A program made the position numbers and the translations under genes. Positions 26,415-41,106 of a stretch of 64,000 nt of DNA are shown piece after piece. Source of the DNA: Pseudoroseicyclus aestuarii. GTDB lineage: Bacteria > Pseudomonadota > Alphaproteobacteria > Rhodobacterales > Rhodobacteraceae. Every line of letters begins with the position of its first letter. Within the stretch, counting starts at the first letter, position 1. The notes beneath the pieces are model-generated. The model made no database searches. It had not been told where the DNA came from and was given only the letters and a program-made list of their open reading frames with translations. The stretch spans positions 620,001-684,000 of the forward strand of contig NZ_QJTE01000002.1 in the NCBI RefSeq assembly GCF_003217255.1, in the 5' to 3' direction.

Positions 26415-28809
26415 GGGCGGCGGCCATTCGCTCCAGCGCCGGCTGCTGGTGACGATGGCCACGGGATTCGCGATCCTGCTGCTGCTGATCTCGGCCCTTT
26501 TGTGGACCTACGCGCGGGCCGCCGCGAACCGGCCGCAGGACCTGCTTCTGGCGGGCACGGCGCTGTCGATCCTCGAACGCATCTCCGCCGGCCCCGAGGG
26601 GGCGACGGTCGATCTGCCGAACTCGGCGATGGAGATCCTGTCGCTCAACCCCATCGACCGGGTGCAGTACCGGGTCTTCCTGCCGGGCGGGCCGACCCTG
26701 ACCGGTACGGAGGGGCTTCCCGTGCCTCCGGGCCTCGCCCCCTCCGGCGCCCCCGTCTTCTTCGAACAGGCCTTTTCCGGCACGGTCTTCCGCTTCGTGC
26801 TGCAGGCGCGGCAGCTCACCACCGCGGAGGGGCGGCAATGGGTGGCGGTGCAGGTCGGCCAGACCGTCGAGGCGCGCGACGCGGAGCAGCGCTCCTTCTT
26901 CGTGGCCGGGCTGATCGGGCTGGCGGGGCTGTCTCTCATCGGGCTGGGCTTCGTCTGGGTCGCGATCCGCACCTCTCTGGCGCCGCTGCGGCAGGTGGCT
27001 GCCGATCTCGCGCAGCGAGAGCCGGCCGACCTCGGCGCGGTCGGGGGGGCGCCGCCGCGCGAGATCCGGGGCCTGTTCGATGCGATCAACGGCTTCATCG
27101 CCCGCCTCAGCCGCAGCCGCGCGCTGACCGAAACCTTCATCGCCGACGTGGCCCACCAGACGCGCACCTCGCTCTCGGCGCTGCAGGGGCACCTGTCGCT
27201 GGCCGTCGATGCGGAAACGCCCGAGCAGATGCGCAGCCGGCTGGTCAAGGCGGACCGTCAGGCGACGCGCACGGTGCGGCTGACGAACCAGCTTCTGGCC
27301 AATGCCATGGTCATCCACCGCTCCGACAGGTCGAGCCTGCAGCCGCTGGCCCTGAAGCCGCTGGTGCGCGACACCCTTGCCCAGACGCTGCGCGACAGCC
27401 GCATGCGGCATATCTCGCTCTCCTTCGTCGACGAGGGGATCGAGCCGGGCGGGGACATTGTCCTCGGCGACGCGGTCTCGATCCGCGAGGCGCTGCGCAA
27501 CCTGATCGAGAATGCCGTTCGCCACGGCCCGCCAGACAACACGATAACGATCTCGCTCGTCGCATCGAACGAGGCGCTGGTGCTGAGCGTCGAGGACGCC
27601 GGTCCCGGCATCGCGGAGGCGGACCTGCCGCGGGCGACCGAGCGGTTCACCTCCCTGTCCCAGAACTCCACCGGCTCGGGCCTCGGGCTGTCGATCGTGA
27701 AGGCGGTGACGGATGGCCACGGGGCAGAGCTGCGGCTCGGGCGTTCCCCCTTGGGAGGACTCTGCGTGACACTGATCTTCAAGCGGCTTCTGGCCGTTCT
27801 CCTGCTGGCGCTCTGGCCGCTGGTCTCCGGCGGCGGCGCGGCGCGGGCGGAGGCGCTGGTGATCCACAGCGCGACCGATACCGCGGCGATGCGCCCCCTG
27901 ATCGAGGCCTTCGAGGCCCGCACCCCCGGCGTCGAGGTCGACTACGTAGAATACCAGACCCTCGATCTTTACCGCGCGATGCTGCGGGAGGCAGAGGGGC
28001 CGGGGCCGGACCTCGTCATTTCCTCGGCCATGGATCTGCAGGTCGATCTGGTCAATCGCGGTCTCGCCCGGCGCCTCCAGCTGCCGTTCCAGACCGAGTC
28101 CCCCTCCTGGGCCGTCTGGCGGTCCGAGCTTTTCGGCTTCACCTTCGAGCCGGCGGTGATCGTCTACGACACCCGCGCGATCTCGCGAGAGGAGCTGCCC
28201 GCGTCCCACCGCGATCTCGCGACCTTCGTCCGCGAGAACGAGGACCGCTTCCGCGGCCGCATCGGGACCTACGACATCGCGCAATCCGGCATCGGCTACC
28301 TCTTCGCCTCGCAGGACGGCCTTCAGGGTCCGCAGATGCTGCGCCTCTTCGAGGTTCTCGGCCGCGCCGACCTCAAGACCTACTGCTGCACCTCGCAGAT
28401 GGTCGAGGCGACGGCGCGGGGGGAACTGGCCTTCGCCTTCAATACCATCGGCTCCTACGCGGCGGCGCAGATCGAGGCAGAGCCGCATCTCGGCCTGCAT
28501 TTCTTCGACGACTACAACCTCGTGATGACGCGGACCGCCTTCGTCCCCGCGGCCGCGCGCCAGCCAGAGGTGGCGGCGCTCTTCATCGCCTTCCTGCTCT
28601 CGCGCGAAGGGCAGGGCATCATCGCGGAGCAGACGCCGCTCATTCCCCTCAGCCCGGAGCAGGCGATCCCGCCGCCCATCGGCCCCGAGATGCGGGCCCG
28701 CAGCGGAACCTTCCTGCCGATCAGGCTGACACCCGGTCTGCTGACCTACCTAGACGCGCTGAAGCAGCGCGACTTCCTCTCGGCCTGGGAGGCGTCGCTG
28801 GGGCGGTGA
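26407..28809 (+). CDS. Histidine kinase fused in frame to a periplasmic binding protein (TctE/PgtB-PgtC-like)
   Basis: One uninterrupted 800-codon frame. Residues 1-453 are a TctE-type sensor kinase: TM1 (about 13-34), periplasmic sensor (35-160), TM2 (about 163-187), HisKA with H250 in ADVAHQTRTSL, N-box NLIENAVRHG (365-374), DAGPG (397-401) and GSGLGLSIV (423-431). The usual Pro after the H-box Arg-Thr is Ser. Residues 454-481 look like a signal peptide (FKR, hydrophobic core, ARA-E cleavage site). Residues 482-800 form a family-1/iron-type binding protein resembling PgtC, the periplasmic partner of the PgtB sensor. As a third TM, the joint would place the C-terminus in the periplasm, giving a consistent topology. 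It overlaps the response regulator gene. Confidence 0.85.
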   Translation: MTEGGGHSLQRRLLVTMATGFAILLLLISALLWTYARAAANRPQDLLLAGTALSILERISAGPEGATVDLPNSAMEILSLNPIDRVQYRVFLPGGPTLTGTEGLPVPPGLAPSGAPVFFEQAFSGTVFRFVLQARQLTTAEGRQWVAVQVGQTVEARDAEQRSFFVAGLIGLAGLSLIGLGFVWVAIRTSLAPLRQVAADLAQREPADLGAVGGAPPREIRGLFDAINGFIARLSRSRALTETFIADVAHQTRTSLSALQGHLSLAVDAETPEQMRSRLVKADRQATRTVRLTNQLLANAMVIHRSDRSSLQPLALKPLVRDTLAQTLRDSRMRHISLSFVDEGIEPGGDIVLGDAVSIREALRNLIENAVRHGPPDNTITISLVASNEALVLSVEDAGPGIAEADLPRATERFTSLSQNSTGSGLGLSIVKAVTDGHGAELRLGRSPLGGLCVTLIFKRLLAVLLLALWPLVSGGGAARAEALVIHSATDTAAMRPLIEAFEARTPGVEVDYVEYQTLDLYRAMLREAEGPGPDLVISSAMDLQVDLVNRGLARRLQLPFQTESPSWAVWRSELFGFTFEPAVIVYDTRAISREELPASHRDLATFVRENEDRFRGRIGTYDIAQSGIGYLFASQDGLQGPQMLRLFEVLGRADLKTYCCTSQMVEATARGELAFAFNTIGSYAAAQIEAEPHLGLHFFDDYNLVMTRTAFVPAAARQPEVAALFIAFLLSREGQGIIAEQTPLIPLSPEQAIPPPIGPEMRARSGTFLPIRLTPGLLTYLDALKQRDFLSAWEASLGR
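27753..27768 (+). promoter_or_regulatory. Internal ribosome binding site and in-frame GTG start at the kinase/binding-protein joint
   Basis: GGGAGGA at 27753-27759 lies 6-7 bases before GTG 27766-27768, which is codon 454 of the fusion frame. Initiation here would give MTLIFKRLLAVLLLAL..., a standard signal peptide followed by the binding protein (about 347 codons). It is better placed than the ribosome sites of several full genes in this window. Confidence 0.65.
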
Positions 28810-29394: not shown

Positions 29395-30366
29395 TTACTG
29401 GCCCAGAACGGCGGCCAGACGGGTGCGCGCATCCTCGTTCAGCCACTGCGACCAGGTGTCGGTGTTGGTCGTCAGGAAGTGCACCGCGGCCTCTTCGGTG
29501 GTCGCGTTGTTCTCGTCGCGCCAGGCGAGCAGGGCGCTCATCTCGTCGGTGCCGAAGCTGACGTTGCCGATCATCTCGGCGACCTCGGGGTTCGCTTCGA
29601 CGAACTCGGTGGTCGCGACGGTATAGACCAGGCTCGGGGGATAGGCGCTGGGCTGCGGGTCGGCGACATTCTCGTCGAGGTTGCCCTCATGCGCCTCGAG
29701 ATCGACCCCGCCGATATCGACCATGGTCATGTCGAGGCGGCCCATCAGAGCGGTCGGCTCCCAGTAGTAGCCGAACCAGGGCTCCTCGTTCTCGTAGGCG
29801 GCGGCCAGCGAGGCGGCCAGCGTCTCGCCGCTGCCGTGATCGAAGACCTCGATCCCGGCCTCTTCAAGGCCGTAGGCGCGCGCGATGTTGCGGTTGATGG
29901 TCGAGCAGACCCAGCCGCCCGAGGGGCAGTTGTTGAAGCGGTTGCCGACCAGATCCGGGTTGTCGATGATCCCCTGGATCGTCGTCAGCTCGGGGTGCTC
30001 TTCGGCGAGGTAGGTCGGGATCCACCAGGCTTCGATGCCGCCCGGCTCGAGCACCTCGGCGAGATCGGTGATCACGCCGTCGGCCTTCAGCCGGTCGTAG
30101 ACGGCCCCGGCGGAGTTCACCCAAAGCTCGGTGACGATGTCCGGATCGCCGTTCTCGGACAGCGAGGTCAGGGCCGGGATCGTGTCCGAGGGCACCCGCG
30201 TGACCTCGCAGCCGTAGCCGTTCTGCATGAGGAACGACGCGATCTCCGTCGTGATGATGGCGGAGGAGAAGCTCATCTCGGTGATGCTGACTTCACCGCA
30301 CTCTGCGGCAGCGACGCTGGGCGCAGCGGCCGCCAGGACCGCGACGGAAAGGGCTCGTTTCATCAT
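29395..30366 (-). CDS. Glycine betaine/choline-type ABC substrate-binding protein (OpuAC family), orphan
   Basis: About 323 residues: signal peptide MMKRALSVAVLAAAAPSVAAA, then an OpuAC domain with VSITEMSFSSAIITTEIASFL, the aromatic-cage-type segments ELWVNSAG and WFGYYWEPTALMGRLDM, and a Cys pair (NNCPSGGWVCST) as in choline/betaine receptors. No matching permease or ATPase is nearby. It lies 106 bases downstream of the FAD oxidoreductase on the same strand and may be last in that operon, although it has its own promoter-like sequence. A quaternary ammonium ligand is likely from family, not proven. Confidence 0.88.
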   Translation of the reverse strand: MMKRALSVAVLAAAAPSVAAAECGEVSITEMSFSSAIITTEIASFLMQNGYGCEVTRVPSDTIPALTSLSENGDPDIVTELWVNSAGAVYDRLKADGVITDLAEVLEPGGIEAWWIPTYLAEEHPELTTIQGIIDNPDLVGNRFNNCPSGGWVCSTINRNIARAYGLEEAGIEVFDHGSGETLAASLAAAYENEEPWFGYYWEPTALMGRLDMTMVDIGGVDLEAHEGNLDENVADPQPSAYPPSLVYTVATTEFVEANPEVAEMIGNVSFGTDEMSALLAWRDENNATTEEAAVHFLTTNTDTWSQWLNEDARTRLAAVLGQ

Positions 30367-30397
30367 TGGCAAGGCTCTCTGTTGTTTCAATCGCGAC

Positions 30398-30427
30398 CCT
30401 ATAGCGCATTGGAACGACAAAGACCAA
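30398..30427 (-). promoter_or_regulatory. Candidate promoter for the betaine-type binding protein
   Basis: On the reverse strand TTGGTC (-35-like), an 18-base spacer and TATAGG (-10-like) lie 32 bases upstream of the coding start in a locally AT-rich patch. This would allow the binding protein to be expressed separately from the upstream oxidoreductase. Confidence 0.4.
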
Positions 30428-30472
30428 TGCGGCGGGCATGCGCTGCCGCCACGCCCGCCGCAGCCCGGGGGG

Positions 30473-31816
30473 CTAGAGCGCCGGGCCGGGCCGGATCGGG
30501 CTGCCGTCGGTGAAGCGCGAGAAGCGGAAGCGCGACAGATCGTGACCCGGCGGGTCCCCTGCGACGAGGTCCGCCAGCACCCGCCCGAAGCCCGGCCCGA
30601 TGCCGAAGCCATGCGCCGACATGCCCGTGCCGATGGTCAGCCCCTCCAGCGCCTCGCAGCGCGAGGCGATGGGCACCACGTCGGGCATCGCGTCGATCAT
30701 CCCGGCCCAGGCCGCGCGCAGCGTGATCGGGCCAAGCTGCGGGAAGAGCGCGGCGAAGTTGCGCTGCATCGCCGCCGCGGCGCGGGCGTTCGGCGCCGGG
30801 TTCAGCACGCGCATCCGCTCGAAGGGTGTGACCTCGTCGGGGCCGAAGCGGCGCGGGGTGCGCCAGGCGTCGGGGAACCCGGCGGGGGCCGCAAGGCGAG
30901 GCCGCGTGCCGAAGGGATCGGTCCGCCAGGTGGCGAGGTAGGCGCGCATGTGGCGCAGCAGGTCGCGGCCCATGTAGGCCTCGTGAAAGCCCGCGGGGCC
31001 TAGCGTGTAGCCGCCGTCCTGCCGGCGGCGAAAGGCGATGCGGGCATCCGTGGCGGCACCGGCGTGGATCTCGGGCAGCGGCCCGGTCGCCGCGACGGTG
31101 CCGCGCACGGCCAGCTGCGGGATGCGGATGCCGGCCTGCCGCAGCAGCAGCGAGGACCAGGCGCCGCCGGCCACCAGCACCTGCGGCGCGCGCAGGCGCC
31201 CGGCCTCTGTCGCGACGCCGGCGATGCGCCCGGCCTCGACCTCGAGGCCCCGCACCGCGCAGCCCTCGCGGATCAGCACGCCTTCGCGGGCGGCAAGGCG
31301 GGCGAGGGCGGGCACGGCCTTCCATGGCTCGCCGCGCATGTCCGAGGGGGTGCGCATCGCGCCCAGCGGCTTGCCCGTCATGCCGGGGATCAGCGCCTCG
31401 GTCTCGGCGGCACTCAGCATGGTGGTATCCACGCCCTGCGCCTTGGCATGGGGCAGCCAGTCCTCGAACTCTGCCAGCTCGGCCTGGCTATGGGCGATGT
31501 AGGTCGTCCCGCCGGGCGCGAGGCCGATATCCTCGCCGCACTCCGCGGAGAGCTGTTTCCACAGCGCGATCGCCTCGGTCGAGATCGGCAGCTCGTCCGG
31601 GTCGCGGCCCTGCTGCCGGATCCAGCCCCAGTTGCGCGAGGATTGCTCGCCCGCGATGCGGCCCTTTTCCAGCAGGGTGACGCGCAGCCCCTTGCGGCGC
31701 AGGAAGAGCGCGGCGGTCACGCCGATCACCCCGCCGCCGACCACGACGACATCGCATTCCGCCGGCAGGGCGGCGGCATGCTCGATCGGCTGGGCCTCCG
31801 AAATCGGAAAACTCAT
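30473..31816 (-). CDS. FAD-dependent oxidoreductase (DadA/DAO family)
   Basis: A 447-residue amine/amino-acid oxidoreductase. The FAD fold DVVVVGGGVIGVTAALFLRRKG is at residues about 21-42, RNWGWIRQQGRDPDEL follows, and the C-terminal FAD segment is GTGMSAHGFGIGPGFGRVLA. The family oxidises D-amino acids, sarcosine, opines or related secondary amines. Its ATG overlaps the stop of the upstream aminotransferase (ATGA), so the two are translationally coupled and probably act on the same substrate. Exact chemistry is unknown. Confidence 0.9.
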   Translation of the reverse strand: MSFPISEAQPIEHAAALPAECDVVVVGGGVIGVTAALFLRRKGLRVTLLEKGRIAGEQSSRNWGWIRQQGRDPDELPISTEAIALWKQLSAECGEDIGLAPGGTTYIAHSQAELAEFEDWLPHAKAQGVDTTMLSAAETEALIPGMTGKPLGAMRTPSDMRGEPWKAVPALARLAAREGVLIREGCAVRGLEVEAGRIAGVATEAGRLRAPQVLVAGGAWSSLLLRQAGIRIPQLAVRGTVAATGPLPEIHAGAATDARIAFRRRQDGGYTLGPAGFHEAYMGRDLLRHMRAYLATWRTDPFGTRPRLAAPAGFPDAWRTPRRFGPDEVTPFERMRVLNPAPNARAAAAMQRNFAALFPQLGPITLRAAWAGMIDAMPDVVPIASRCEALEGLTIGTGMSAHGFGIGPGFGRVLADLVAGDPPGHDLSRFRFSRFTDGSPIRPGPAL

Positions 31817-33006
31817 CACGCGGCTCCCGTTTCTGTGGGCGCTGCGGCCCGCGACAGGATCGCCATGCTCTCGACCGCCTCGAGCAGCACATCGTCCGGC
31901 ACGGTCAACGCCACCCGGATCAGGCTGCCGCCGCCCTCGCCGAAGGCGCTGCCGGGCATGACGGCGATGCCGTGCTCTTCCAGCAGGCGCCAGGCGAAGG
32001 CCTCGCCGTCCATCCCGGTCTGCGCCACGTCGATCATCGTGAACATGCCGCCCGCCGGCATCGCCGAGGACAGCGCCGGGATCGCCTGCACCCGCTCGTG
32101 CACCAGCCGCGCACGGCGGCCCAGCGCCTCTCGCAGGAGGGCCGAGGTCGGGTAGGCCCCGCGCAGCGCCGCCTCGGTCATGTCGGCGATGAAGGGCTGG
32201 TTGCCGAAGAGCATCACCTCCGAGATGGGCAGCAGCCGGCGCGAAAACGCCGCCGGGCCGATCGACCAGCCGCTGCGGAAGCCGGTGGCGGCATGGCTTT
32301 TGGAGATCGAGGAGACGACGACCGTGCGTTCGCGCAGGCGCGCGATCTCGAGGGGGGAGGCAAAGCTGCCCTCGAAGATCAGCGCCTCGTAGACCTCGTC
32401 GCAGACGATCCAGAGGTCGTTCTCGATGCAGATGTCGCCCAGCGCCTCGAGCGTCTCGCGGCGCAGCACCGCGCCGGTGGGATTGTGCGGCGTGTTCAGC
32501 AGCAAGACGCGGCTGTCCGGGGTGACGGCGGCGCGCAGATCCTCGGGCCGCATCTCGAAGCCGGCCTCGATCCGCAGCGGCACCGGCTGGACGTGGGCGC
32601 CGGTGGCCTGCACCACGCCCTCGTAGGTGGCGTAATAGGGATCGCCGATCAGCACGCCGTCGCCGGACCCGGTCAGCGCGGTGAAGACGGCATAAAGGGC
32701 CGTCTGCGTGCCGGGAAAACACAGCACGTTGTCCGCCGTGATCTCCGGGTGGCGCGGGCGGTAGCGCTCGACCAGCGCATCGACCAGCCCCGGCTCTCCC
32801 TGACCGTTGGAATATCGGGTGCGCCCGGCGCGCAGTGCGGTGATGCAGGTCTCGACCAGCGCGGGATCGGGCGTGATGTCCGGCTCTCCGATGGTCAGGT
32901 CGGTGACGGTCTCGCCGGCCTCGGTGCGGGCGCGGGCGGCGTTGTGAACGGCCCATTTGTCGCCGCCAAGGTCGTAAAGACGGTCGGTGATCGCGGCATA
33001 GCGCAT
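31816..33006 (-). CDS. Class I/II PLP-dependent aminotransferase
   Basis: A 396-residue fold-type I aminotransferase. Key blocks: TDLTIGEPDITP (N-terminal arm), NTPHNPTGAVLRRE, IVCDEVYEALIFEG and the PLP lysine motif SSISKSHAATGFRSGW; the carboxylate-binding arginine lies in LIRVALTVPD. It presumably interconverts an amino acid and its 2-oxo acid. The gene starts 22 bases after the TetR-type regulator stop and overlaps the FAD gene. A partner 2-oxo acid reductase lies in the second half of the inferred regulon. Confidence 0.92.
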   Translation of the reverse strand: MRYAAITDRLYDLGGDKWAVHNAARARTEAGETVTDLTIGEPDITPDPALVETCITALRAGRTRYSNGQGEPGLVDALVERYRPRHPEITADNVLCFPGTQTALYAVFTALTGSGDGVLIGDPYYATYEGVVQATGAHVQPVPLRIEAGFEMRPEDLRAAVTPDSRVLLLNTPHNPTGAVLRRETLEALGDICIENDLWIVCDEVYEALIFEGSFASPLEIARLRERTVVVSSISKSHAATGFRSGWSIGPAAFSRRLLPISEVMLFGNQPFIADMTEAALRGAYPTSALLREALGRRARLVHERVQAIPALSSAMPAGGMFTMIDVAQTGMDGEAFAWRLLEEHGIAVMPGSAFGEGGGSLIRVALTVPDDVLLEAVESMAILSRAAAPTETGAA

Positions 33007-33028
33007 GGCGGGTCCTTTCTGGGGTCGG

Positions 33029-33754
33029 TCAGTCCTGCGGCGGCAGGTCGGTCAGGTGGCGCAGCAGGGCGGTGTCGGGCAGCCGCAGCAGCCCCTCGGC
33101 GGCGCTGAGGGCGATGCCCGGCAGGCGGTGCGGGTCGTAAAGGCCGTGGTCGAGCGATCCTTCCAGCCAGAGCCCGTCGATCAGCCCGTTCAGGGCGATG
33201 GCGAGGCTGCGGCAGGCCTCGGGGCTGCTCGGGCGGCCGTGCTTGACGAGGACTGGGTGGATCAGCCGCGTCAGCACCTCGAGGAACTCGCGGTAGCTGT
33301 CGCGGTGGATGACGGAATAGCCCGCCTCCCCGTCGACCCGTCCGATGAAGGTCGCCCAGAGCGACACCTTCCGGGGCGAGAGGTTCGGCTGCATCACGTT
33401 GGCCGCGACAAAGCGGGCGAGGGCCGCCTCTGGGCTGTCGCCGCCGGCCCGTGCGGCCTCTGCCGCCTCGGAGGTGAGCTGCGTCATCAGGTGGGCGTAG
33501 GCCTGGCGCACCATCTCGTCCATGGAGCCGAAGTGGTGACGGATCAGCCCGGCGGTCACGCCGGCACGCTCGGCGATGCGGCGCGCGCTGGCGCCGCTTG
33601 CCCCGGCCTCGCCGATGCAGTCCAGCGTCGCCTCCAGAAGCGCGCGGCGCCGGTCGGCATCCGCGAGGCGCTGAAAGCTCTTGCGCGTCGGCGTGACGGC
33701 CTTTGGGCTGTGCAGTTGCTCATTCTGGGGGCGCTGTGCCGGTTTATTGACCAT
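33029..33754 (-). CDS. BetI/TetR-family repressor of the 29-41 kb catabolic island
   Basis: A 241-residue TetR-type regulator. The helix-turn-helix is GASGASARRIAERAGVTAGLIRHHFGSMDEMVRQAY (residues about 53-88 of the chosen frame). The C-terminal segment AGYSVIHRDSYREFLEVLTRLI resembles BetI (TetR_C_6). I chose the start MVNKPAQRP because AGGAGAG lies upstream. It is the first gene of a leftward operon and is divergent from the ABC importer. The 16-bp dyad at 33822-33837, repeated at 38906-38921, is its likely operator. Confidence 0.9.
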   Translation of the reverse strand: MVNKPAQRPQNEQLHSPKAVTPTRKSFQRLADADRRRALLEATLDCIGEAGASGASARRIAERAGVTAGLIRHHFGSMDEMVRQAYAHLMTQLTSEAAEAARAGGDSPEAALARFVAANVMQPNLSPRKVSLWATFIGRVDGEAGYSVIHRDSYREFLEVLTRLIHPVLVKHGRPSSPEACRSLAIALNGLIDGLWLEGSLDHGLYDPHRLPGIALSAAEGLLRLPDTALLRHLTDLPPQD

Positions 33755-33821
33755 CGCGCTTTTCTCTCCTGGGGCGGACGGGTAGATATTCCCGGCTGAT
33801 TTGCTTTGTCGGCCTCGTTCT

Positions 33822-33837
33822 TTATACAGTCGTATAA
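33822..33837. promoter_or_regulatory. 16-bp dyad operator, site A (TTATAC-AGTC-GTATAA)
   Basis: A perfect 6-bp inverted repeat with a 4-base spacer lies in the gap between the TetR-type gene and the ABC importer. Size and symmetry fit a TetR dimer. The same architecture recurs at 38906-38921 (5 of 6 half-site bases symmetric), with the following CA also conserved. Confidence 0.75.
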
Positions 33838-33896
33838 CAGACGAAAAAAAACAAGAGGCGCGCCGCTTGGACGGTGCGACTGCTGCGGGAGAGGCA

Positions 33897-34664
33897 ATGA
33901 CCGACCAGCCAGCCATCCAGGTGGAGGATCTTCACAAGCGCTTCGGCACCGTCGAGGTGCTCAAGGGGGTCTCCCTGACCGCCCGGCCCGGCGATGTCGT
34001 GGCGGTGATCGGCGGCTCCGGCTCCGGCAAGTCGACGATGCTGCGCTGCATCAACCTGCTCGAGACGCCGAGCGCCGGGCGCATCAGCATCAAGGGCGAG
34101 GCCTACGAGATGCGCTCCGTCCGCGGCGAGATGGAGCCCGCGAACCGCAAGCAGGTGCAGCGCATCCGCGCGCACCTCGGCATGGTGTTCCAGTCCTTCA
34201 ACCTCTGGCCGCACCGCACCGTTCTGGGCAACGTGACAGAGGTGCCGATCCACGTCCTGGGCGTGAAGCGCGCCGAGGCCGAGGCCCGCGCCATCGCCGT
34301 GCTCGAGCGTGTGGGCCTTGGCGACAAGCGCGACGCCTGGCCGGCGCAGCTGTCTGGCGGGCAGCAGCAGCGCTGCGCCATCGCCCGCGTCCTCGCGGTG
34401 GAGCCGACCGCGATGCTTTTCGACGAGCCAACCTCCGCCCTCGATCCCGAGCTGGTGAACGAGGTGCTCTCGGTGATCCGCGACCTCGCCAGCGAGAAGC
34501 GGACGATGATCCTCGTGACCCACGAGATGGCCTTCGCCCGCGACGTCGCAACCCACGTGATCTTCCTGCGCGACGGCCGGATCGAGGAGGAGGGCCCGCC
34601 CGAGCAGATCTTCGGCGCCCCCCGCTCGCCCCACCTGCAACAGTTCATCCGCTCGGTCGCCTGA
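33897..34664 (+). CDS. Polar amino acid-type ABC transporter ATP-binding protein
   Basis: A 255-residue ATPase of the HisP/GlnQ class: Walker A GGSGSGKSTMLRCINLLE, Q-loop VFQSFNLWPHRTVL, signature LSGGQQQRCAIAR, Walker B AMLFDEPTSALDPE and H-loop VTHEMAFARDV. GGGAGAGG precedes the ATG. It heads a rightward operon with a binding protein and two permeases. The promoter overlaps TetR operator site A. Confidence 0.94.
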   Translation: MTDQPAIQVEDLHKRFGTVEVLKGVSLTARPGDVVAVIGGSGSGKSTMLRCINLLETPSAGRISIKGEAYEMRSVRGEMEPANRKQVQRIRAHLGMVFQSFNLWPHRTVLGNVTEVPIHVLGVKRAEAEARAIAVLERVGLGDKRDAWPAQLSGGQQQRCAIARVLAVEPTAMLFDEPTSALDPELVNEVLSVIRDLASEKRTMILVTHEMAFARDVATHVIFLRDGRIEEEGPPEQIFGAPRSPHLQQFIRSVA

Positions 34665-34723
34665 CGGCTTTTGCCGCCCGGCGCCCCTGCGACCGCATCC
34701 CTCACCACGGAGAAGGAGACTTC

Positions 34724-35500
34724 ATGATCAAGACCCTCGCCCTCTCGCTGACCGCCGCCGCCGCGCTGGCCGGTCCCGCCATGGCCCAGACCTACAACGT
34801 CGGCATCTCGGCTGAGCCCTATCCGCCCTTCTACGCCCCCGATGCCTCGGGCGCCTGGAGCGGCTGGGAGATCGACTTCATGAACGCGGTCTGCGACCGG
34901 ATCGGCGCCGAATGCGTCGTCACCCCCGTCGCCTGGGAGGGGATCATCCCGGCCCTGAACACCGGCAAGATCGACATGATCATCGGCTCCATGGGCATCA
35001 CGCCCGAGCGGGCCGAGCAGATCGCCTTCTCGGACAAGTACTACGACACCCCCACCGGCGTCGTCGCGCTGGCCTCGACCGACGTGCAGCCGACGCCCGA
35101 GGGCGTCACGGGCGCCTATCTCGGCGCGCAGTCCGGCTCCATCCAGGAGAACTACGTCGCGCAGTACTTCGCCGAGACGGCCGCCGACGTGCGCATCTAC
35201 CAGACCCTTGACGAAGAGCTTCAGGATCTGGCCGCCGGGCGCATCGACGCCGTCGTCGGCGACACGCTGGCGATGCAGCCCTTCATCGACAGCGAGGCCG
35301 GTCAGGCCTGCTGCGAGTATCGCGGCGCGGTCGAGAACGACCCCGACGTGCTGGGCCGCGGCGTCGGCATCGGCCTGCGCAAGGACGACACCGAGCTTCT
35401 CGAGACGGTGAACGCCGCCATCGCCGAGATCCGCTCCGACGGGACCTACGAAGAGATCAGCGCGCCCTACTTCGGCGACCTCGACATCTACGGCGAATGA
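34724..35500 (+). CDS. Polar/basic amino acid-type ABC substrate-binding protein
   Basis: A 258-residue family-3 binding protein: signal peptide MIKTLALSLTAAAALAGPAMA, then YNVGISAEPYPPFYAPDASGAW, GWEIDFMNAVCDRIGAEC, WEGIIPALNTGKIDMIIGSM and TPERAEQIAFSDKYYDTP. It most resembles the LAO/histidine/opine-binding (ArgT, NocT, OccT) group. The ligand could be a basic amino acid or an N-substituted derivative; this is inference. AGAAGGAGAC precedes the ATG. A 10-bp hairpin separates it from the permeases. Confidence 0.92.
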   Translation: MIKTLALSLTAAAALAGPAMAQTYNVGISAEPYPPFYAPDASGAWSGWEIDFMNAVCDRIGAECVVTPVAWEGIIPALNTGKIDMIIGSMGITPERAEQIAFSDKYYDTPTGVVALASTDVQPTPEGVTGAYLGAQSGSIQENYVAQYFAETAADVRIYQTLDEELQDLAAGRIDAVVGDTLAMQPFIDSEAGQACCEYRGAVENDPDVLGRGVGIGLRKDDTELLETVNAAIAEIRSDGTYEEISAPYFGDLDIYGE

Positions 35501-35507
35501 TCCGTCT

Positions 35508-35533
35508 GCCGGGCCCCCTGACCGGGGCCCGGC
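35508..35533 (+). terminator. 10-bp hairpin between binding protein and permease genes
   Basis: GCCGGGCCCC (35508-35517), loop CTGACC and GGGGCCCGGC (35524-35533) form a perfect stem 8 bases after the binding-protein stop. There is no T-tract. It probably stabilises the upstream message or attenuates the permease genes. Confidence 0.6.
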
Positions 35534-35560
35534 CCTTCGTCCCACGGCAATGAGGTTTCG

Positions 35561-36280
35561 ATGCTCGACGGCATAGATTTCAGCCTGCTCGCCCTCGACT
35601 CCCCGGGCTGGGGCGGCGCGCTTCTGGAGGGGTTCCTCGTCTCGATCCAGCTTGCCGCGGGCGGCTACCTGCTGGGGCTGGCCATCGGGATTTGCGGCGC
35701 GGTCGCCAAGCTTTACGGCGGGCGGGTGACGCGCGACCTAGCCGAGATCTACACCATCGTTATCCGCGCCGTCCCCGAACTGGTGCTGATGCTGCTGTTC
35801 TACTACGTCGGCACCGACCTCGCGAACCGGGCGATGCAGGCGATGGGCTATTCCGGCTTCGACATCGACGGGCTGACCGCGGGCATCCTGGTGATCGGCC
35901 TCGTTCAAGGCGGCTACGCGACCGAGGTGATCCGCGGCGCGATCCGCGCCGTGCCGCATGGCCAGATCGAGGCGGCGCAGGCCTTCGGCATGGCGCCGCT
36001 CAAGGTGCTGCGCCGCGTGACGCTGCCGGCGGCGACGCCGCATGCGATCCCGGGCATGGCGAACCTGTGGATGATCGCGACCAAGGACACCGCCCTCCTC
36101 GCTGTCATCGGCTTTTCGGAGCTGACGCTGGTGACGCGGCAGGCGGCCTCGGCCACGCGGGCCTATTTCCTGTTCTTCCTCGCCGCCGGCGCGCTTTACC
36201 TGCTGCTGACGCTGGTCTCGAACCTCGGGCTGCGCCTGTTCGAGAAACGGGCCCGGCGCGGCCTCGCGGAGGTGCGCTGA
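35561..36280 (+). CDS. Polar amino acid-type ABC transporter permease (HisQ-like)
   Basis: A 239-residue inner-membrane protein with five hydrophobic helices. The HEEM-family signature IYTIVIRAVPELVLMLLFYY is present, as are the EAA loop GQIEAAQAFGMAPLKVLRRVTLPAATP and SFSELTLV-type terminal segment (IGFSELTLVTRQAAS). It pairs with the next permease as a heterodimer. The following gene starts two bases after its stop. Confidence 0.92.
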   Translation: MLDGIDFSLLALDSPGWGGALLEGFLVSIQLAAGGYLLGLAIGICGAVAKLYGGRVTRDLAEIYTIVIRAVPELVLMLLFYYVGTDLANRAMQAMGYSGFDIDGLTAGILVIGLVQGGYATEVIRGAIRAVPHGQIEAAQAFGMAPLKVLRRVTLPAATPHAIPGMANLWMIATKDTALLAVIGFSELTLVTRQAASATRAYFLFFLAAGALYLLLTLVSNLGLRLFEKRARRGLAEVR

Positions 36281-36282
36281 TC

Positions 36283-37116
36283 ATGCCCGATATCGACATC
36301 CCCGCACGGCCCACCCCCGCCTCGCCCGCCCGCATCCTTGCCCGCGGTGTCCGCGGCCTGATGATGCCGCACCGCATCGCCATGGCGCTTGTCGCCCTTG
36401 CCGGTCTCGTCGCGATGGTCCTGATGATGGACTGGAGCTGGCTGCCGGCCTACCTGCCGCGGCTCTGGGCCGGGCTGGGCATGACGCTGGCGATGCTGGG
36501 CGCCAGCGTCGTCTTCGGCTTCCTGATCGCGCTGCCTCTGGGGGTGGCGCAGGTCATCGGCCCGCGCCCCCTGCGCTGGCTGGCGCTGGGCTTCTGCACG
36601 GTGATCCGCGGCACGCCGCTGCTGCTTCAGCTCTGGCTGATCTACTTCGGCCTCGGGTCCCTCTTCGCGCAGTTCCCCGAACTGCGGGAGACATGGCTCT
36701 GGCCCTACCTGCGGCAGGCCTGGCCCTATGGCCTCTTCGCGCTCACGATCTCCTTCGCCGCTTACCAGGGCGAGGTGATGCGCGGCGCCTTCGCGGGCGT
36801 CCCCTATGGCGAGCTCGAGGCCGCGCGTGCCTTCGGCATGTCGCGCGGCAAGGTCTTCCGCCGGGTCTGGTTCCCGCGCGCGCTGTACCGGGCGCTGCCG
36901 ACGCTGTCGGGCGAGATTATCCTGCAACTGAAGTCGACGCCGCTGCTCGCGACGATCACGGTGACCGACCTTTACGCCGTCATCACCCGGGTCCGGCAGG
37001 CGACCTTCCTGACCTACGAGCCGCTGCTCTTCCTCGTCGCGGTCTACCTGTGCCTGAGCGCGGTGCTGATCGGCGTCCTGCGCTGGATGGAGACGCGGGT
37101 TCCGCAGCACGGCTGA
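36283..37116 (+). CDS. Polar amino acid-type ABC transporter permease (HisM-like)
   Basis: A 277-residue permease beginning MPDIDIPARP, with about five helices. It contains CTVIRGTPLLLQLWLIYFG and the EAA loop YGELEAARAFGMSRGKVFRRVWFPRA. The N-terminal 45 residues before the first helix are longer than usual. It completes the importer and ends at a bidirectional terminator shared with the convergent aldolase gene. Confidence 0.92.
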   Translation: MPDIDIPARPTPASPARILARGVRGLMMPHRIAMALVALAGLVAMVLMMDWSWLPAYLPRLWAGLGMTLAMLGASVVFGFLIALPLGVAQVIGPRPLRWLALGFCTVIRGTPLLLQLWLIYFGLGSLFAQFPELRETWLWPYLRQAWPYGLFALTISFAAYQGEVMRGAFAGVPYGELEAARAFGMSRGKVFRRVWFPRALYRALPTLSGEIILQLKSTPLLATITVTDLYAVITRVRQATFLTYEPLLFLVAVYLCLSAVLIGVLRWMETRVPQHG

Positions 37117-37120
37117 AACT

Positions 37121-37149
37121 CGGGGCCGCCGGATGCTCCGGCGGCCCCG
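37121..37149. terminator. 13-bp perfect hairpin, bidirectional terminator
   Basis: CGGGGCCGCCGGA, a three-base loop TGC and TCCGGCGGCCCCG lie between the convergent permease and aldolase genes. This is the longest perfect stem seen in the window. Confidence 0.7.
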
Positions 37150-37157
37150 GGACCGGA

Positions 37158-37898
37158 TCAGGCTCTGTAGTCCGGGTGCAGGTCCTCGAGCAGGCGCAGA
37201 TGCGCGGCCCATTCCAGCGCCACGTCGTCATCCTCGCCCATGCTGCCCTTGTACTGGTCGGCGACGTGCCGGGCGAGGTCCTCGGGCACCTGTCGCAGCG
37301 GCTGTCCCATCGAGAGGGTCGCGACCTGAATCTCGCAGGCCCGCTCGAGGTAGAACATCGTGTTGAACATCGCCGCCGCCGTCGGCCCGGTGGCCAGCAG
37401 CCCGTGGTTGCGCAGCACCAGTGCCGGGTTGCCGCCGAGGCTGGCGACCAGCCGGTCCCGCTCGCTCAGGTCGAGGGCGATGCCCTCGTAGTCGTGGTAG
37501 GAGATCTGGCCGTAGAACTGCAGCGCGATCTGGTTGAGCGGCAGCAGCCCCTCCTCCAGCGTCGAGACGGCGACGCCGGCCCGCGAATGGGTGTGCATGA
37601 TCCAGGCTGCCTCGTGGCTGGCGCGGTGGATCGCCGAATGGATGGTGAAACCGGCGGGGTTCACGCCATGCGGGCTGTCCTCGACCTTGTTGCCGTCCAC
37701 GTCGATCTTGACCAGCGAGGAGGCGGTGATCTCTTCCCAGCGCAGGCCGTAGGGGTTGATCAGGAAATGCCCCTCCTCGCCCGGCACTCGGGCGGTGATA
37801 TGGGTATAGATCAGGTCGGTCAGCCGGAAATGCGCGGCCAGCCGGTAGCAGGCTGCAAGGTCTTCGCGCGTTTTGCGTTCCGCATCGCTCATCGGCAT
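37158..37898 (-). CDS. Class II aldolase/adducin family protein
   Basis: A 246-residue zinc-type class II aldolase/adducin protein. The metal site is IYTHIT, the pair in IMHTHSRAG, and LRNHGLLATG. Members include fuculose-phosphate aldolase and various decarboxylases and dehydratases, so the reaction is open. AAGGAGAGA lies 8 bases before ATG 37898. It is second after the D-2-hydroxyacid dehydrogenase, 22 bases apart, in the leftward arm controlled by operator site B. Confidence 0.88.
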   Translation of the reverse strand: MPMSDAERKTREDLAACYRLAAHFRLTDLIYTHITARVPGEEGHFLINPYGLRWEEITASSLVKIDVDGNKVEDSPHGVNPAGFTIHSAIHRASHEAAWIMHTHSRAGVAVSTLEEGLLPLNQIALQFYGQISYHDYEGIALDLSERDRLVASLGGNPALVLRNHGLLATGPTAAAMFNTMFYLERACEIQVATLSMGQPLRQVPEDLARHVADQYKGSMGEDDDVALEWAAHLRLLEDLHPDYRA

Positions 37899-37920
37899 GG
37901 GGTCTCTCCTTCTTTTTGGG

Positions 37921-38874
37921 TCAGTAGCCGCGGGCGGGGTCCACGGCATAGGTCAGGGGGGTGCCGTCGCGCAGCGCGCGGGCGGTCTCGATCGCCTGCG
38001 CCACGACGATCTCGGGGATCGAGTCGCTGGCCACATGCGGCGTGATGCGCAGCCGGTCGTCTTGCCAGAAGGGGTGATCCTTCGGAAGCGGCTCCTCGCG
38101 GAAGACGTCGAGCGTCGCGCCGGCCAGCTGCCCGCCGTCCAGCGCCGCGGTCAGGTCGGCCTCGACGAGGTGCTCGCCCCGGCCGATCTGGATCAGCCGC
38201 GCGCCGGGCGCGAGGCGGGCGAAGAGACCCGCGTTCAGCACGTCCCGCGTGGCCTCGGTCAGCGGCAGCACGTTGATCAGGTAATCGGCGCCCTCGGCCG
38301 CCTCGGCGATGCCCGCATCGCCGGCGCAGTAGGTGACGCCCTCCATCGGCTCGTCCGGGATGCTGCGGCAGGCGATCCGCACGTCGAAGCCGAGCGCGGC
38401 GCAGCCGCGCGCGACGGCCCGGCCCATCGTCCCGTTGCCAAGGACCGCGACGGTCGCGGCCTCGGGGGCGCGCATCGGCTCTGGCCGCCATTCGGCGCGG
38501 CGGGCGCAATCGGCCATGCGGCCGAAGCCGCGCTCGTCATGCAGCACCTCGTGCACCGCGAAGCCCGCCATCAGGTCGGCCTGATGCGGATCGCGCACGC
38601 GGGCCACCCGCATGCCATCGCGCAGGCCGGGGTGGGCCAGCAGCGCATCGACGCCGGCGCCGATGGACATGGCGACCTTGAGGTTCGGGTAGGGATCGAA
38701 GGCCGCCGCGCCGGGCAGCCAGCACAGCGCGAAGGAGATCGCCTCGGGGTCCGTCACCTCTTCGGGGCGCAGCACCGTGATGTCGGGCGCCTGCGCGCGC
38801 AGCAGATCGCCGTAAAGGCCGTCGAGGTCGAGAGTCTCGCTAAGGTAGACCCCGGTGATCGTAGAGTGGTCCAT
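37921..38874 (-). CDS. D-2-hydroxyacid dehydrogenase, GhrA-like
   Basis: A 317-residue NAD(P)-dependent reductase. The Rossmann motif is AVLGNGTMGRAVARGCAALG (residues about 140-160). The catalytic triad is Arg in IQIGRGEHL, Glu in FREEPLPKDH and His in ITPHVASDS, as in glyoxylate/hydroxypyruvate reductase A. It likely reduces a 2-oxo acid, which could be the aminotransferase product. The start MDHSTI has GGAGCC upstream; the open frame continues further but loses similarity. It is divergent from the M20 gene across operator site B. Confidence 0.9.
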   Translation of the reverse strand: MDHSTITGVYLSETLDLDGLYGDLLRAQAPDITVLRPEEVTDPEAISFALCWLPGAAAFDPYPNLKVAMSIGAGVDALLAHPGLRDGMRVARVRDPHQADLMAGFAVHEVLHDERGFGRMADCARRAEWRPEPMRAPEAATVAVLGNGTMGRAVARGCAALGFDVRIACRSIPDEPMEGVTYCAGDAGIAEAAEGADYLINVLPLTEATRDVLNAGLFARLAPGARLIQIGRGEHLVEADLTAALDGGQLAGATLDVFREEPLPKDHPFWQDDRLRITPHVASDSIPEIVVAQAIETARALRDGTPLTYAVDPARGY

Positions 38875-38905
38875 GCAGGCTCCATCCGATGCGTCTTCAC
38901 AGTAG

Positions 38906-38921
38906 TTGTACGAGTGTATAA
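38906..38921. promoter_or_regulatory. 16-bp dyad operator, site B (TTGTAC-GAGT-GTATAA)
   Basis: The same half-sites and spacing as site A at 33822-33837, with one asymmetric base, in the 88-base divergent gap between the dehydrogenase and M20 genes. The flanking CA is also shared. The gap is AT-rich (TTGTACGAGTGTATAACAAAT), so the dyad could overlap promoter elements of both genes. Confidence 0.75.
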
Positions 38922-38962
38922 CAAATGCACAGCCGATTGCACGACACCAAAGGTGACAGCCG

Positions 38963-40210
38963 ATGACCGACGATTCGTCCCGCATGCCCGCTGCCAACGA
39001 CCCCTCGCGGGTGATCGAGCAGGTGATCGAGGCCGCGACGCCGCGGCTGGTCGCCCTGCGCCGCGACCTGCATGCCCACCCCGAGACCGGCTTCGACACG
39101 CATCGTACCGCCGGGGTCGTCGCGCAGGGCCTCGAGGCGCTGGGCCTTTCGGTGCAGTCCGGCGTGGGGCGAACCGGCGTCGTCGCCGAGATCGAGGGCG
39201 GCGCGCCGGGTCCCTGCCTGATCCTGCGGGCCGACATGGACGCGCTGCCGATCGAGGAGCGGACCGGGCTGGACTATGCCTCGACCACGCCGGGGCAGAT
39301 GCATGCCTGCGGCCACGACATCCACACATCGGCCCTTCTCGGCGCGGCCGAGGCCCTCGTTCGTATCGCGCCGCATCTGGCGGGGCGGGTGCGCCTCGTC
39401 TTCCAGCCCGCCGAGGAGACGCTGGACAGCGGGGCCGCCGCGATGATCGCCGATGGCGTGGCGCAGGGCGCGGACATGGCCGTGTCGTTCCACAACCAGC
39501 CGGACCTCGCGGCCGGAGAGCTGCGGCTGGTCCGTGGATCGGGCACCGCCTCGAGCGATGAGTTCAGCGTGACCGTCACCGGCAAGTCGGGGCATGCCGC
39601 CCGGCCTGACCAGGCCGCCGACCCGATCGTCGGCGCCGCCTACATGATCACGCAGCTTCAGACGATCGTCTCGCGCCGGATGAGGCCGGCCGATCCGCTG
39701 GTGCTGACCGTCGGGCAGATCTCTGGCGGTTTCACCGAGAACATCATCCCCGATACCTGCAGCTTCATCGGCACTGTCCGCTGCCGCACGGCGGCGACGC
39801 GCGACATGGCCGAGGCGGCCTTCCGCGAGATCTGCGGCAGCGTTGCGCGGGCACAGGGCCTCGAGGCGCAGGTGAGCTACGTGCGGGGCGTGCCGCCGCT
39901 GGTGAACGATGGGGGGCTGCTGGCGCAGGCCGAGCGCAGCTTTGCCGCTCAGTTCAGCGCCCCGCCGCATATCGTGCCGGGCGAGGACTTCGGGTCCGAG
40001 GATTTCGCCTGGTTCTCCGAAATCCTGCCGACCCTGCAGTTCCACGTCGGCTCGGGCCAGCCGGGCCGAGACGACCGCCTGCACAATTCAGACTACCAGC
40101 CGGACGAGAGATCGATCCCCACCGGCGCCACGGCCATGGCCCGGCTTGCGCTTGACCTTCTCGCCCCGGACCGCGATGACCGCGCGCCAAGCCAAACGGA
40201 GGCATCATGA
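38963..40210 (+). CDS. M20D-family amidohydrolase/deacylase
   Basis: A 415-residue zinc-dependent hydrolase of the hippuricase/IAA-amino-acid-hydrolase group. Metal ligands are in HACGHDIHTSALLGAAEAL, catalytic Glu in FQPAEETLDSGAA, and further ligands in SFHNQPDLAAGEL and VPGEDFGSEDFAWF; the dimerisation domain begins near FSVTVTGKSGHAARPDQAAD. It hydrolyses an N-acyl or amide bond, probably of an imported conjugate. The stop overlaps the methyltransferase start (ATGA). Confidence 0.92.
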   Translation: MTDDSSRMPAANDPSRVIEQVIEAATPRLVALRRDLHAHPETGFDTHRTAGVVAQGLEALGLSVQSGVGRTGVVAEIEGGAPGPCLILRADMDALPIEERTGLDYASTTPGQMHACGHDIHTSALLGAAEALVRIAPHLAGRVRLVFQPAEETLDSGAAAMIADGVAQGADMAVSFHNQPDLAAGELRLVRGSGTASSDEFSVTVTGKSGHAARPDQAADPIVGAAYMITQLQTIVSRRMRPADPLVLTVGQISGGFTENIIPDTCSFIGTVRCRTAATRDMAEAAFREICGSVARAQGLEAQVSYVRGVPPLVNDGGLLAQAERSFAAQFSAPPHIVPGEDFGSEDFAWFSEILPTLQFHVGSGQPGRDDRLHNSDYQPDERSIPTGATAMARLALDLLAPDRDDRAPSQTEAS

Positions 40211-41106
40211 CCCGCATCACCCTTCTCGACGGCGGCATGAGCCGCGAGCTGCAGCGCTGCGGCGCGGTGCTGCGCCAGCCCGAATGGTCCGCGCTCGCGC
40301 TGATCGAGGCGCCCGAGGCGGTCGACGCCGCGCATCGCGCCTTCCTCGAAGCCGGGGCGCAGGTGATCACCACCAACAGCTACGCCGTCGTGCCCTTCCA
40401 CCTGGGCGAGGCGCGCTTCGCCGCCGAGGGGCAGGCCCTTGCCGCCCGCGCCGCGCAGCTGGCCAAGGCCGCCGCGGCCGATCATCCCGGCGCCCGCGTC
40501 GCCGGCTGCCTGCCGCCGGTCTGCGGCTCCTACCAGCCGGAGAACTTCTCGCGGGAGGTCGCCGCACCGATCCTCCAGACGCTGGTGAGCTCCATGGCAG
40601 CGGACGTCGACCTCTGGCTGGGCGAGACGCTCAGCTCGCTGGACGAGGCGCGCACCATCGCCGAGGCGACCGCCGGCACCGGCAAGCCGCTGTGGCTGTC
40701 CTTCACGCTCAAGGACGGCGTGGGCGCCGAGAACCGCGCCCCCGTCCTGCGCTCGGGCGAAAGCGTGGAAGAGGCCGCGGTGCTGGCCCGCGAGCTTGGC
40801 GTCGAGGGCCTGCTCTTCAACTGCTCCATGCCCGAGGTGATGGAGCCCGCGATCCTCGCGGCCCGGGCGGCGCTGGGCGATGCGCCCGTGCCGATCGGCG
40901 TCTATGCCAATGCCCTCGTCTCGCAGGACGAGGACGGGGCGGCGAACGAGGTGCTATCCAAGGTGCGGGACGATCTGACGCCGACCGGCTACCTCGACTG
41001 GGCGGATCGCTGGGTCGCGGCGGGGGCAAGCCTGATCGGCGGATGCTGCGGCATTAACTCGCCGCATATCGCCGAGCTGTCCGCCCACTTCGCGCCCGCC
41101 TCCTGA
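40207..41106 (+). CDS. Homocysteine S-methyltransferase family protein (MmuM/BHMT-like)
   Basis: A 299-residue TIM-barrel methyltransferase. It begins ITLLDGGMSRELQRCG. The three zinc cysteines are in FNCSMPE and the C-terminal GGCCG motif. Length fits S-methylmethionine:homocysteine methyltransferase (about 310) better than betaine:homocysteine methyltransferase (about 400), but the family has both. It moves a methyl group from a sulfonium or betaine donor to homocysteine. Coupling to the M20 gene suggests the donor arises from the imported compound. Confidence 0.88.
   Translation: MTRITLLDGGMSRELQRCGAVLRQPEWSALALIEAPEAVDAAHRAFLEAGAQVITTNSYAVVPFHLGEARFAAEGQALAARAAQLAKAAAADHPGARVAGCLPPVCGSYQPENFSREVAAPILQTLVSSMAADVDLWLGETLSSLDEARTIAEATAGTGKPLWLSFTLKDGVGAENRAPVLRSGESVEEAAVLARELGVEGLLFNCSMPEVMEPAILAARAALGDAPVPIGVYANALVSQDEDGAANEVLSKVRDDLTPTGYLDWADRWVAAGASLIGGCCGINSPHIAELSAHFAPAS

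Follow-up and report, generated by a model that had tools for sequence, protein, structure and literature searches.

The closest described relatives of the system reported here are bacterial gene neighbourhoods around mmtN, which encodes an S-methyltransferase making S-methylmethionine (SMM; the Roseovarius indicus enzyme is PDB 7VVV); passages of the work describing them tell of Group I clusters with genes like those of Novosphingobium sp. BW1 or S. mobaraensis, which likely encode downstream enzymes of dimethylsulfoniopropionate (DMSP) production (PMC9135737). Here we describe a counterpart without mmtN in Pseudoroseicyclus aestuarii (Rhodobacteraceae; assembly GCF_003217255.1, 3.44 Mb): a cassette of 12 genes over 11.7 kb, at positions 29395-41106 of the stretch NZ_QJTE01000002.1 620,001-684,000 (forward strand), the whole 64,000 nt of which we call the window. 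It combines a TetR repressor, an aminotransferase (AT), a D-2-hydroxyacid dehydrogenase (HADH) and a class II aldolase-fold protein (ALD) with an amino-acid ABC importer that includes a substrate-binding protein (SBP), a homocysteine S-methyltransferase (HMT), an M20 amidohydrolase (M20), a DAO-family oxidoreductase (DAO) and an OpuAC-type receptor.

Several described systems share parts with this cassette. The BW1-type mmtN cluster: in Novosphingobium sp. BW1 homologues of TetR, AT, HADH and ALD stand in one stretch with the same operator, and the window likewise holds all four with a common operator; the BW1 type has MmtN and no such importer, whereas the window has the importer, HMT, M20, DAO and OpuAC genes, its genome being without MmtN. 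The SMM salvage system of Escherichia coli: uptake, there through the MmuP permease, and a homocysteine S-methyltransferase, there MmuM, are common to both; the window differs in its ABC importer, an HMT outside the MmuM equivalog, the added AT-HADH-ALD branch and TetR control. The arginine transaminase pathway (AruH/AruI) and modules of the TetR-AT-AruI-ABC kind: these share a related TetR, the operator, AT and in several loci an ABC importer; the window has HADH and ALD where a thiamine diphosphate (ThDP) decarboxylase stands in them, and no AruI-type ThDP decarboxylase was found among the 12 cassette genes, to which the search within this genome was confined. The non-heme-iron oxygenases NovR/CloR and TqaM: ALD has the same fold, significant sequence similarity and aligned histidines, at 25-28% identity in fold alignments, its use of iron and O2 being a prediction. 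The yxe operon, which serves S-(2-succino)cysteine salvage: the best PDB match of M20 is YxeP (1ysj, E 5e-68), and an M20 protein together with an amino-acid ABC importer is common to both; the monooxygenase/acetyltransferase pair of that operon is absent from the 12 cassette genes.

A preliminary description of this stretch knew of no named pathway with this exact gene set. A literature search by gene-family names returned no relevant paper; part of the set is nevertheless already in print as a neighbourhood, since passages of PMC9135737 describe the BW1-type mmtN clusters, whose genes presumably include AT, HADH and ALD. What is new is the import form, the operator and the candidate decarboxylase, as a variant of a partly described DMSP gene neighbourhood.

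The explanation that we prefer, with a probability of about 0.48 for the whole, is as follows. A BetI-like TetR repressor acting on a palindrome of ~22 bp in two divergent promoters would control the import and use of SMM: the lysine/arginine-type ABC importer would take up SMM, a cationic sulfonium amino acid; HMT would pass one of its methyl groups to homocysteine, giving two methionines; AT would convert SMM to 4-dimethylsulfonio-2-oxobutyrate (DMSOB), which HADH would reduce to the D-2-hydroxy acid 4-dimethylsulfonio-2-hydroxybutyrate (DMSHB); and ALD, as a NovR/TqaM-like non-heme-iron oxygenase, would turn DMSHB into DMSP by oxidative decarboxylation. The sister cassettes with MmtN would make their own SMM and do without such an importer.

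The cassette runs in the order receptor, DAO, AT, TetR (minus strand); ATPase, SBP and two permeases (plus strand); ALD, HADH (minus strand); M20, HMT (plus strand). Profile searches against Pfam and NCBIfam confirmed all of the named genes. The features, in window positions, are:

29395-30366, minus strand: OpuAC/ProX-type betaine receptor, downstream of the oxidoreductase (PF04069, 180 bits)
30473-31816, minus strand: FAD-dependent DAO-family oxidoreductase, its start overlapping the AT stop (PF01266, 232 bits)
31816-33006, minus strand: class I/II aminotransferase AT, proposed SMM transaminase (PF00155, 181 bits)
33029-33754, minus strand: TetR repressor with BetI-type C-domain, its first ~20 residues uncertain (PF00440, PF13977)
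33819-33840: operator 1, core 33822-33837 TTATACAGTCGTATAA, between the TetR-AT-DAO-receptor genes and the ABC importer
33897-34664, plus strand: HisP-type ABC ATPase (NCBIfam HisP, 335 bits, below the equivalog cut-off of 466)
34724-35500, plus strand: lysine/arginine/ornithine-type SBP (TIGR01096, 216 bits, cut-off 256)
35561-36280, plus strand: HisQ-like permease (PF00528; NCBIfam HisQ, 177 bits, cut-off 319)
36283-37116, plus strand: second permease, HisM-like by position (PF00528, 52 bits)
37158-37898, minus strand: class II aldolase-fold protein ALD, proposed D-2-hydroxyacid oxidative decarboxylase (PF00596)
37921-38874, minus strand: D-2-hydroxyacid dehydrogenase HADH, GhrA-like (PF02826, 132 bits; GhrA, 171 bits, cut-off 403)
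38903-38924: operator 2, core 38906-38921 TTGTACGAGTGTATAA, between HADH-ALD and M20-HMT
38963-40210, plus strand: M20 amidohydrolase of the N-acyl amino acid deacylase type (TIGR01891, 341 bits, above the cut-off of 154)
40207-41106, plus strand: homocysteine S-methyltransferase HMT, of a subfamily distinct from MmuM (PF02574, 197 bits; NF007020, 118 bits, cut-off 215)

The operator and its TetR regulator

The two divergent gene blocks had initially been assigned one shared 16-bp operator. Both dyads lie at the core positions given above, in the two divergent promoters, and a scan of the window for TTRTAC-N4-GTATAA with up to two mismatches gave four matches, namely these two places on both strands, where 100 shuffles would lead one to expect 0.10; a promoter scan found no sigma-70 promoter in either intergenic region. 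When one mismatch is allowed, the entire assembly has the dyad at the same two promoters only, a count that is not above chance because the backward control pattern is about as numerous (2 forward and 3 reverse matches); the telling point is placement, both genomic matches being divergent promoters of one 11.7-kb stretch.

A search of GTDB contigs with the TetR protein gave 111 relatives, the best 80 of which were taken as loci with up to 10 kb on each side; being sampled via TetR, these cannot show cassettes that lack it. In the promoters of cassette genes, every site agreeing with TTATAC-N4-GTATAA at 10 or more of its 12 fixed positions was counted. Such sites were found in 71 of the 80 loci, compared with a mean of 1.3 and a maximum of 13 loci for 59 permuted half-sites of the same composition, and over all 80 loci 101 sites fall inside cassette promoters (5.7% of the bases) versus 9 outside. 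Every one of the 38 loci with HADH has the operator, 29 of them two or more times, typically once at TetR and once between HADH and its divergent neighbour; it is also present in 33 of the 42 loci without HADH. The site-bearing loci are spread over five orders: Rhodobacterales, Hyphomicrobiales, Rhodospirillales (Thalassospira), Sphingomonadales (Novosphingobium) and Oceanospirillales (Salinicola). Within the family of P. aestuarii the site was found at 17 of 18 TetR loci beside AT (at least 50% identity) and at none of the 11 other TetR loci fetched, which include one with a distant AT (36%) and a piece of AruI (L023) and one with permease homologues (L022). Only 2 of 149 genomes of the family, that of P. 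aestuarii included, have a TetR match above 200 bits; hence the cassette is sporadic.

Some results weaken this assignment, the backward control being one of them. In nine of the 80 loci no cassette promoter has a site that reaches the threshold, and all nine are among the 42 lacking HADH. In 10 further genomes 7 of 8 exact matches lie in the cassette; with up to one mismatch 20 of 50 places do so and the control pattern is about as frequent, and hence the one-mismatch pattern is not specific genome-wide.

An information profile was computed from 44 sites of the window and 25 representative loci; one of these sites (L050@4697) lies off a cassette promoter. Information is 0.55 to 1.0 bit at each of the three bases adjoining a half-site on its outer side, compared with about 0.2 bit per position in the flanks; the values within the half-sites (1.15 to 2.0 bits) are inflated by match-based selection, to which the neighbouring bases were not subject. 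The extended consensus is about TTG-TTATAC-N4-GTATAA-CAA. Since conservation extends three bases past each half-site, the operator is about 22 bp long: the dyad initially noticed is real at both promoters, and its 16 bp are too short.

The regulator exceeds the cut-offs of both PF00440 and PF13977, i.e. it is a TetR-family protein with a BetI-type C-domain, and it is the one such gene in the cassette, with one operator at both promoters, as had been proposed. The choline-responsive repressor BetI shares these two domains and differs in the genes it controls; the BetI equivalog TIGR03384 was rejected for the window protein (87.8 bits versus a cut-off of 201.3). Across the window protein and the 20 of the 80 TetR sequences that were aligned and modelled with it, the V-x-x-G-L-x-R segment of the helix-turn-helix region is invariant (21 proteins). 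Very probably a BetI-like subfamily of TetR proteins has this palindrome as its operator, and the conserved footprint together with the co-occurrence of site and gene suggests that the TetR protein itself binds there. We regard it as highly likely that the regulon and its operator are real.

Two forms of the cassette and a candidate substrate

The 12 window proteins were mapped onto the 80 loci, matches of ATPase, SBP and permeases below 36% identity and of AT below 45% being left out. AT is present in 66 loci. TetR is accompanied by both HADH and AT in 38, of which 34 also have ALD. The presumed linkage of the two blocks thus gets a mixed answer: it is seen in these 38 loci, each with the operator, and does not extend to the 42 TetR loci without HADH. 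The gene for MmtN is found in 20 loci, Novosphingobium sp. BW1 (L069) among them, all of which belong to the 38 with HADH, at 0.9 to 2.5 kb from ALD; the methyltransferase copy of one (L050) matches PDB 7vvv with E 6e-120. As a control the MmtN query recovered all 4 genomes expected to have it, and it matched none of 8 genomes of the importer type; it gave no match in the genome of P. aestuarii and none at E 1e-40 in 385 genomes drawn from the class, the latter serving as background only and marking MmtN as rare.

The loci with HADH fall into two forms. None of the 20 MmtN loci has an importer of the window kind, HMT, MmuM or M20 (ATPase matches of 29-34% in three of them, L059, L062 and L063, were excluded as unrelated). 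Of the 18 without MmtN, 16 have an amino-acid ABC importer, 13 of the window kind and 3 of another; HMT occurs in 3, MmuM in 3, M20 in 7 and DAO in 4, these four being the only loci with DAO among the 80 and all having an importer. The M20/HMT block is accordingly less constant in its linkage (M20 in 7, HMT or MmuM in 6 of the 18). A Fisher test of importer versus MmtN gives 7e-9, uncorrected for kinship, and overstates the contrast because in a tree of HADH and AT the MmtN and importer kinds are sister clades (support 0.9 to 1.0), that is, one evolutionary split and not 38 independent cases.

The importer clade contains two homocysteine methyltransferase subfamilies, about 32% identical to each other: the window type, found in the window and in L034, L037 and L049 (the last row not being used in the alignment), and, in Halomonadaceae, MmuM, canonical in L042 (394 bits versus a cut-off of 215; E 5e-94 to 5dml) and represented in L046 and L047 by proteins 64-71% identical to it. 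The window HMT belongs to PF02574 (cut-off 22 bits), and its FNC and GGCC segments align with those of MmuM-type proteins; their cysteines are presumably zinc ligands. Elsewhere in the same genome there are two weak HMT relatives, 31% and 27% identical. The known methyl donor of MmuM, as given in a passage of PMC12366255, is SMM. SMM suggests itself as the substrate because an enzyme with SMM as donor occurs in the importer clade while the sister clade makes SMM, so that what one form of the cassette synthesizes the other, with its amino-acid importer, may take up. The SBP is of the lysine/arginine/ornithine type, its best PDB match being the LAO-binding protein 5owf (E 6e-47), and therefore suits a cationic amino acid. 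On balance we consider SMM the probable substrate, made in the MmtN form and imported in the other; it may also be the inducer of the regulon.

Further arrangements were seen around these genes. The OpuAC-type receptor was found in none of the 80 related loci and accompanies the cassette only in the window, where it has no ATPase or permease of its own alongside. Between mmtN and ALD lies a conserved small protein (L069:7205-7609 and L059:7013-7366, minus strand) with a CxGLxxAPTVLRIKQAL segment, which to our eye resembles TusA-family proteins; the open reading frame in L069 has no Pfam match. On a Thioclava plasmid the importer, TetR and AT occur together, and within about 10 kb there is no homologue of HADH, ALD, M20 or HMT. 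On an Alloyangia pacifica plasmid (L129:354-5383) the cassette lies beside an operon for carnitine 3-dehydrogenase, 3-keto-5-aminohexanoate cleavage (BKACE) and carnitinyl-CoA dehydratase; an ALD homologue stands next to this operon, and its substrate might be carnitine or else a sulfonium analogue, for instance gonyol. The distance between ALD and HADH in L041, L043 and L048 is the same as in L129. Loci of the L072 type carry an EamA-type transporter (cluster c7, 23 of the 80 loci) and M20 near TetR, some with AT, as a shorter version; the operator lies between M20 and TetR in some of these (L071-L080, L088-L090), with none over the threshold in others (e.g. L083, L094). Outside the cassette, at window positions 26407-28809 (plus strand), a single frame seems, judged by eye, to encode a sensor histidine kinase fused to a C-terminal part that resembles a periplasmic binding protein.

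Predicted chemistry of AT, HADH and ALD

In AT the residues Asn175, Asp203, Tyr206, Lys236 and Arg364, which we take to be the usual aminotransferase catalytic residues, are invariant in nine aligned sequences. HADH is GhrA-like and closest to the glyoxylate/hydroxypyruvate reductases. The intermediate DMSOB is labile, and the DMSHB of algae has the D-configuration. DMSOB appears in the pathway legends of PMC9135737 and PMC13360808.

ALD is homologous to NovR at the sequence level (E 1.2e-21), with the NovR histidines aligning with His104, His106 and His167 of ALD; these are invariant in the 24 sequences, the window protein and 23 of the 34 ALD proteins, that were used for alignment and modelling. 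Homology and the three-histidine site are thus both in place for an oxygenase of the NovR/CloR/TqaM type, and from the fold the counterparts of these residues in NovR would be iron ligands. Aldolases of the class II aldolase fold bind metal at these histidines too; the site is necessary and not sufficient for an oxygenase. The model has a mean pLDDT (predicted local distance difference test) of 80, the five models being uneven (80 to 34). Its fold neighbours are, in order, 3ocr (uncharacterised), adducins and 4xxf, followed by TqaM, pyruvic oxime dioxygenase and NovR, with the E. coli-type fuculose aldolases lower. One TqaM entry of the PDB holds, by its title, D-3-phenyllactate, which is a D-2-hydroxy acid. 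NovR/CloR, according to a passage of PMC13111500, have a three-histidine iron site and decarboxylate oxidatively first a 2-oxo and then a 2-hydroxy acid. A passage of PMC11306096 names DsyGD as the sole enzyme for which DMSHB decarboxylase activity is known and calls those of other producers unidentified.

A sugar-aldolase or retro-aldol role for ALD was set aside, though not fully: TqaM, NovR and pyruvic oxime dioxygenase outrank the E. coli-type fuculose aldolases, yet 4xxf is closer than NovR. The catalytic Glu73 of fuculose aldolase (FucA numbering) seems absent from ALD. Its homology to NovR and TqaM makes oxidative decarboxylation a likelier activity of ALD than retro-aldol cleavage.

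The biochemical steps initially envisaged fare differently. Import of an N-acylated or N-/S-methylated amino acid is supported as import, and the linkage with MmtN and MmuM now points to SMM; methyl transfer to homocysteine, transamination and reduction hold as parts of the scheme; the final aldolase cleavage is right as to the class II aldolase fold and gives way to oxidative decarboxylation as the reaction; deacylation and oxidation by M20 and DAO, and the betaine-type receptor, find no place in it. A DMSP-lyase cupin (PF16867) was not found in the genome of P. aestuarii, which is weak evidence because the family was over its cut-off in none of 14 control genomes; other lyases and DmdA were not sought.

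Alternatives, origin and significance

Computation establishes the genes, the operator and how widely it is conserved, the association with MmtN, HMT and MmuM, and the protein family to which ALD belongs; the full route from SMM to DMSP, with the order of its steps and its product, is a tentative reconstruction. Several observations weigh against it. L035, L036 and L038 have importers of a different amino-acid type (permease identity 37-38%), and in 12 of the 18 HADH loci that lack MmtN no HMT or MmuM is seen within the stretch examined. The window HMT falls below the MmuM cut-off NF007020 (118 versus 215 bits) and could use another donor. Because the MmtN-linked and importer-linked trios are sister clades that parted in one split, the 20 MmtN loci do not count as separate cases, and a change of substrate in the importer clade is conceivable. 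Two plasmid MmtN genes, 51-64% identical to the query, stand without an AT, HADH or ALD homologue within about 9 kb, and hence MmtN does not need this trio; one of them adjoins a diaminopimelate decarboxylase and a polyketide synthase gene. In ALD, 3ocr, adducins and 4xxf (Glaciozyma, titled fuculose-1-phosphate aldolase, E 5e-30) are nearer than NovR in both sequence and fold, and the M20, DAO and OpuAC genes have no place in the scheme. Near one trio-less mmtN, on a Rhizobium lusitanum plasmid (L127:3700-4869), we also observed an M20 aminoacylase-family gene, 33% identical to the window M20 and about 4 kb away, a second association of M20 with SMM-making genes.

The cassette has relatives of an arginine type. 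In the family of P. aestuarii, 15 of 17 AT-linked TetR loci (L005-L021, with 1.5-kb flanks) have, next to AT, part of a gene homologous to 5-guanidino-2-oxopentanoate decarboxylase, and several of them the same kind of ABC importer. Among the 80 loci this decarboxylase occurs in 6 and a dimethylargininase-like gene in 10, none of them with HADH. Modules of TetR and AT with the same operator, a 2-ketoarginine decarboxylase homologue and often an ABC importer (L005-L021, L081, L085, L098, L108) are a probable (methyl)arginine transaminase regulon; those of Rhizobium have an additional dimethylargininase-like gene and M20. We read the SMM cassette as a variant of such a module with HADH and ALD in place of the ThDP decarboxylase; either would shorten a cationic amino acid by one carbon. 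That mmtN-less bacteria import SMM to make DMSP, that ALD is the missing DMSHB oxidative decarboxylase of BW1-type producers and that the cassette arose in this way from an arginine-transaminase module is, as one joint proposal, possible but doubtful.

An origin from arginine modules also feeds, against our preferred explanation, the best surviving alternative, which keeps the regulon and changes the substrate: the importer clade would act on another cationic or N-acylated amino acid, e.g. an arginine analogue, which the paralogous TetR-AT-AruI modules seem to handle, with HMT dealing with a by-product. In paralogous modules under the same operator there are a 5-guanidino-2-oxopentanoate decarboxylase (757 bits in L081, against a cut-off of 500) and a gene resembling dimethylargininase (85 bits, cut-off 340), the SBP is closest to arginine/lysine/ornithine-binding proteins, and an M20 deacylase is present; however, AruI and dimethylargininase homologues are found in none of the 38 HADH loci, the importer clade has two different homocysteine S-methyltransferase subfamilies, and its sister clade carries MmtN. 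We consider this alternative unlikely. Next comes the possibility, in our view also improbable, that regulon and SMM are as proposed and the trio degrades: DMSOB would lose dimethyl sulfide (DMS), spontaneously or by metal-enolate elimination on ALD, to give 2-oxo-3-butenoate, which HADH would detoxify through reduction, the products being DMS and a C4 hydroxy acid. The linkage to SMM through MmtN and MmuM holds equally for such a pathway, importer and HMT suggest catabolism, the HADH relatives act on small 2-oxo acids, and the ALD fold also carries out eliminations, with a weak match of ALD to the methylthioribulose-1-phosphate dehydratase MtnB (34 bits, cut-off 137). Yet the trio is kept beside MmtN in BW1-type strains, of which those tested make DMSP according to passages of PMC9135737, and some fold neighbours of ALD are oxidative decarboxylases. 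Finally, the idea that the palindrome arose by chance or is an element of promoters in general, the genes being mere neighbours, is scarcely credible and was rejected: the counts in the P. aestuarii genome and the 10 other genomes do not exceed the control, but the 71 loci versus a permuted maximum of 13, the contrast within the family and the conservation over five orders speak against it.

If the preferred explanation, SMM import and conversion to DMSP under TetR control, is true, its significance lies in the sulfur chemistry of the sea, DMSP being a marine osmolyte and one of its main organosulfur compounds. Passages of PMC11306096 and PMC13360808 have bacterial DMSP makers counted by S-methyltransferase marker genes, dsyB, mmtN and others; bacteria forming DMSP from imported SMM would be missed by such counts. 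ALD would then be a concrete candidate for the DMSHB decarboxylase step that is missing in most bacteria, and the operator offers a searchable signature for the system.

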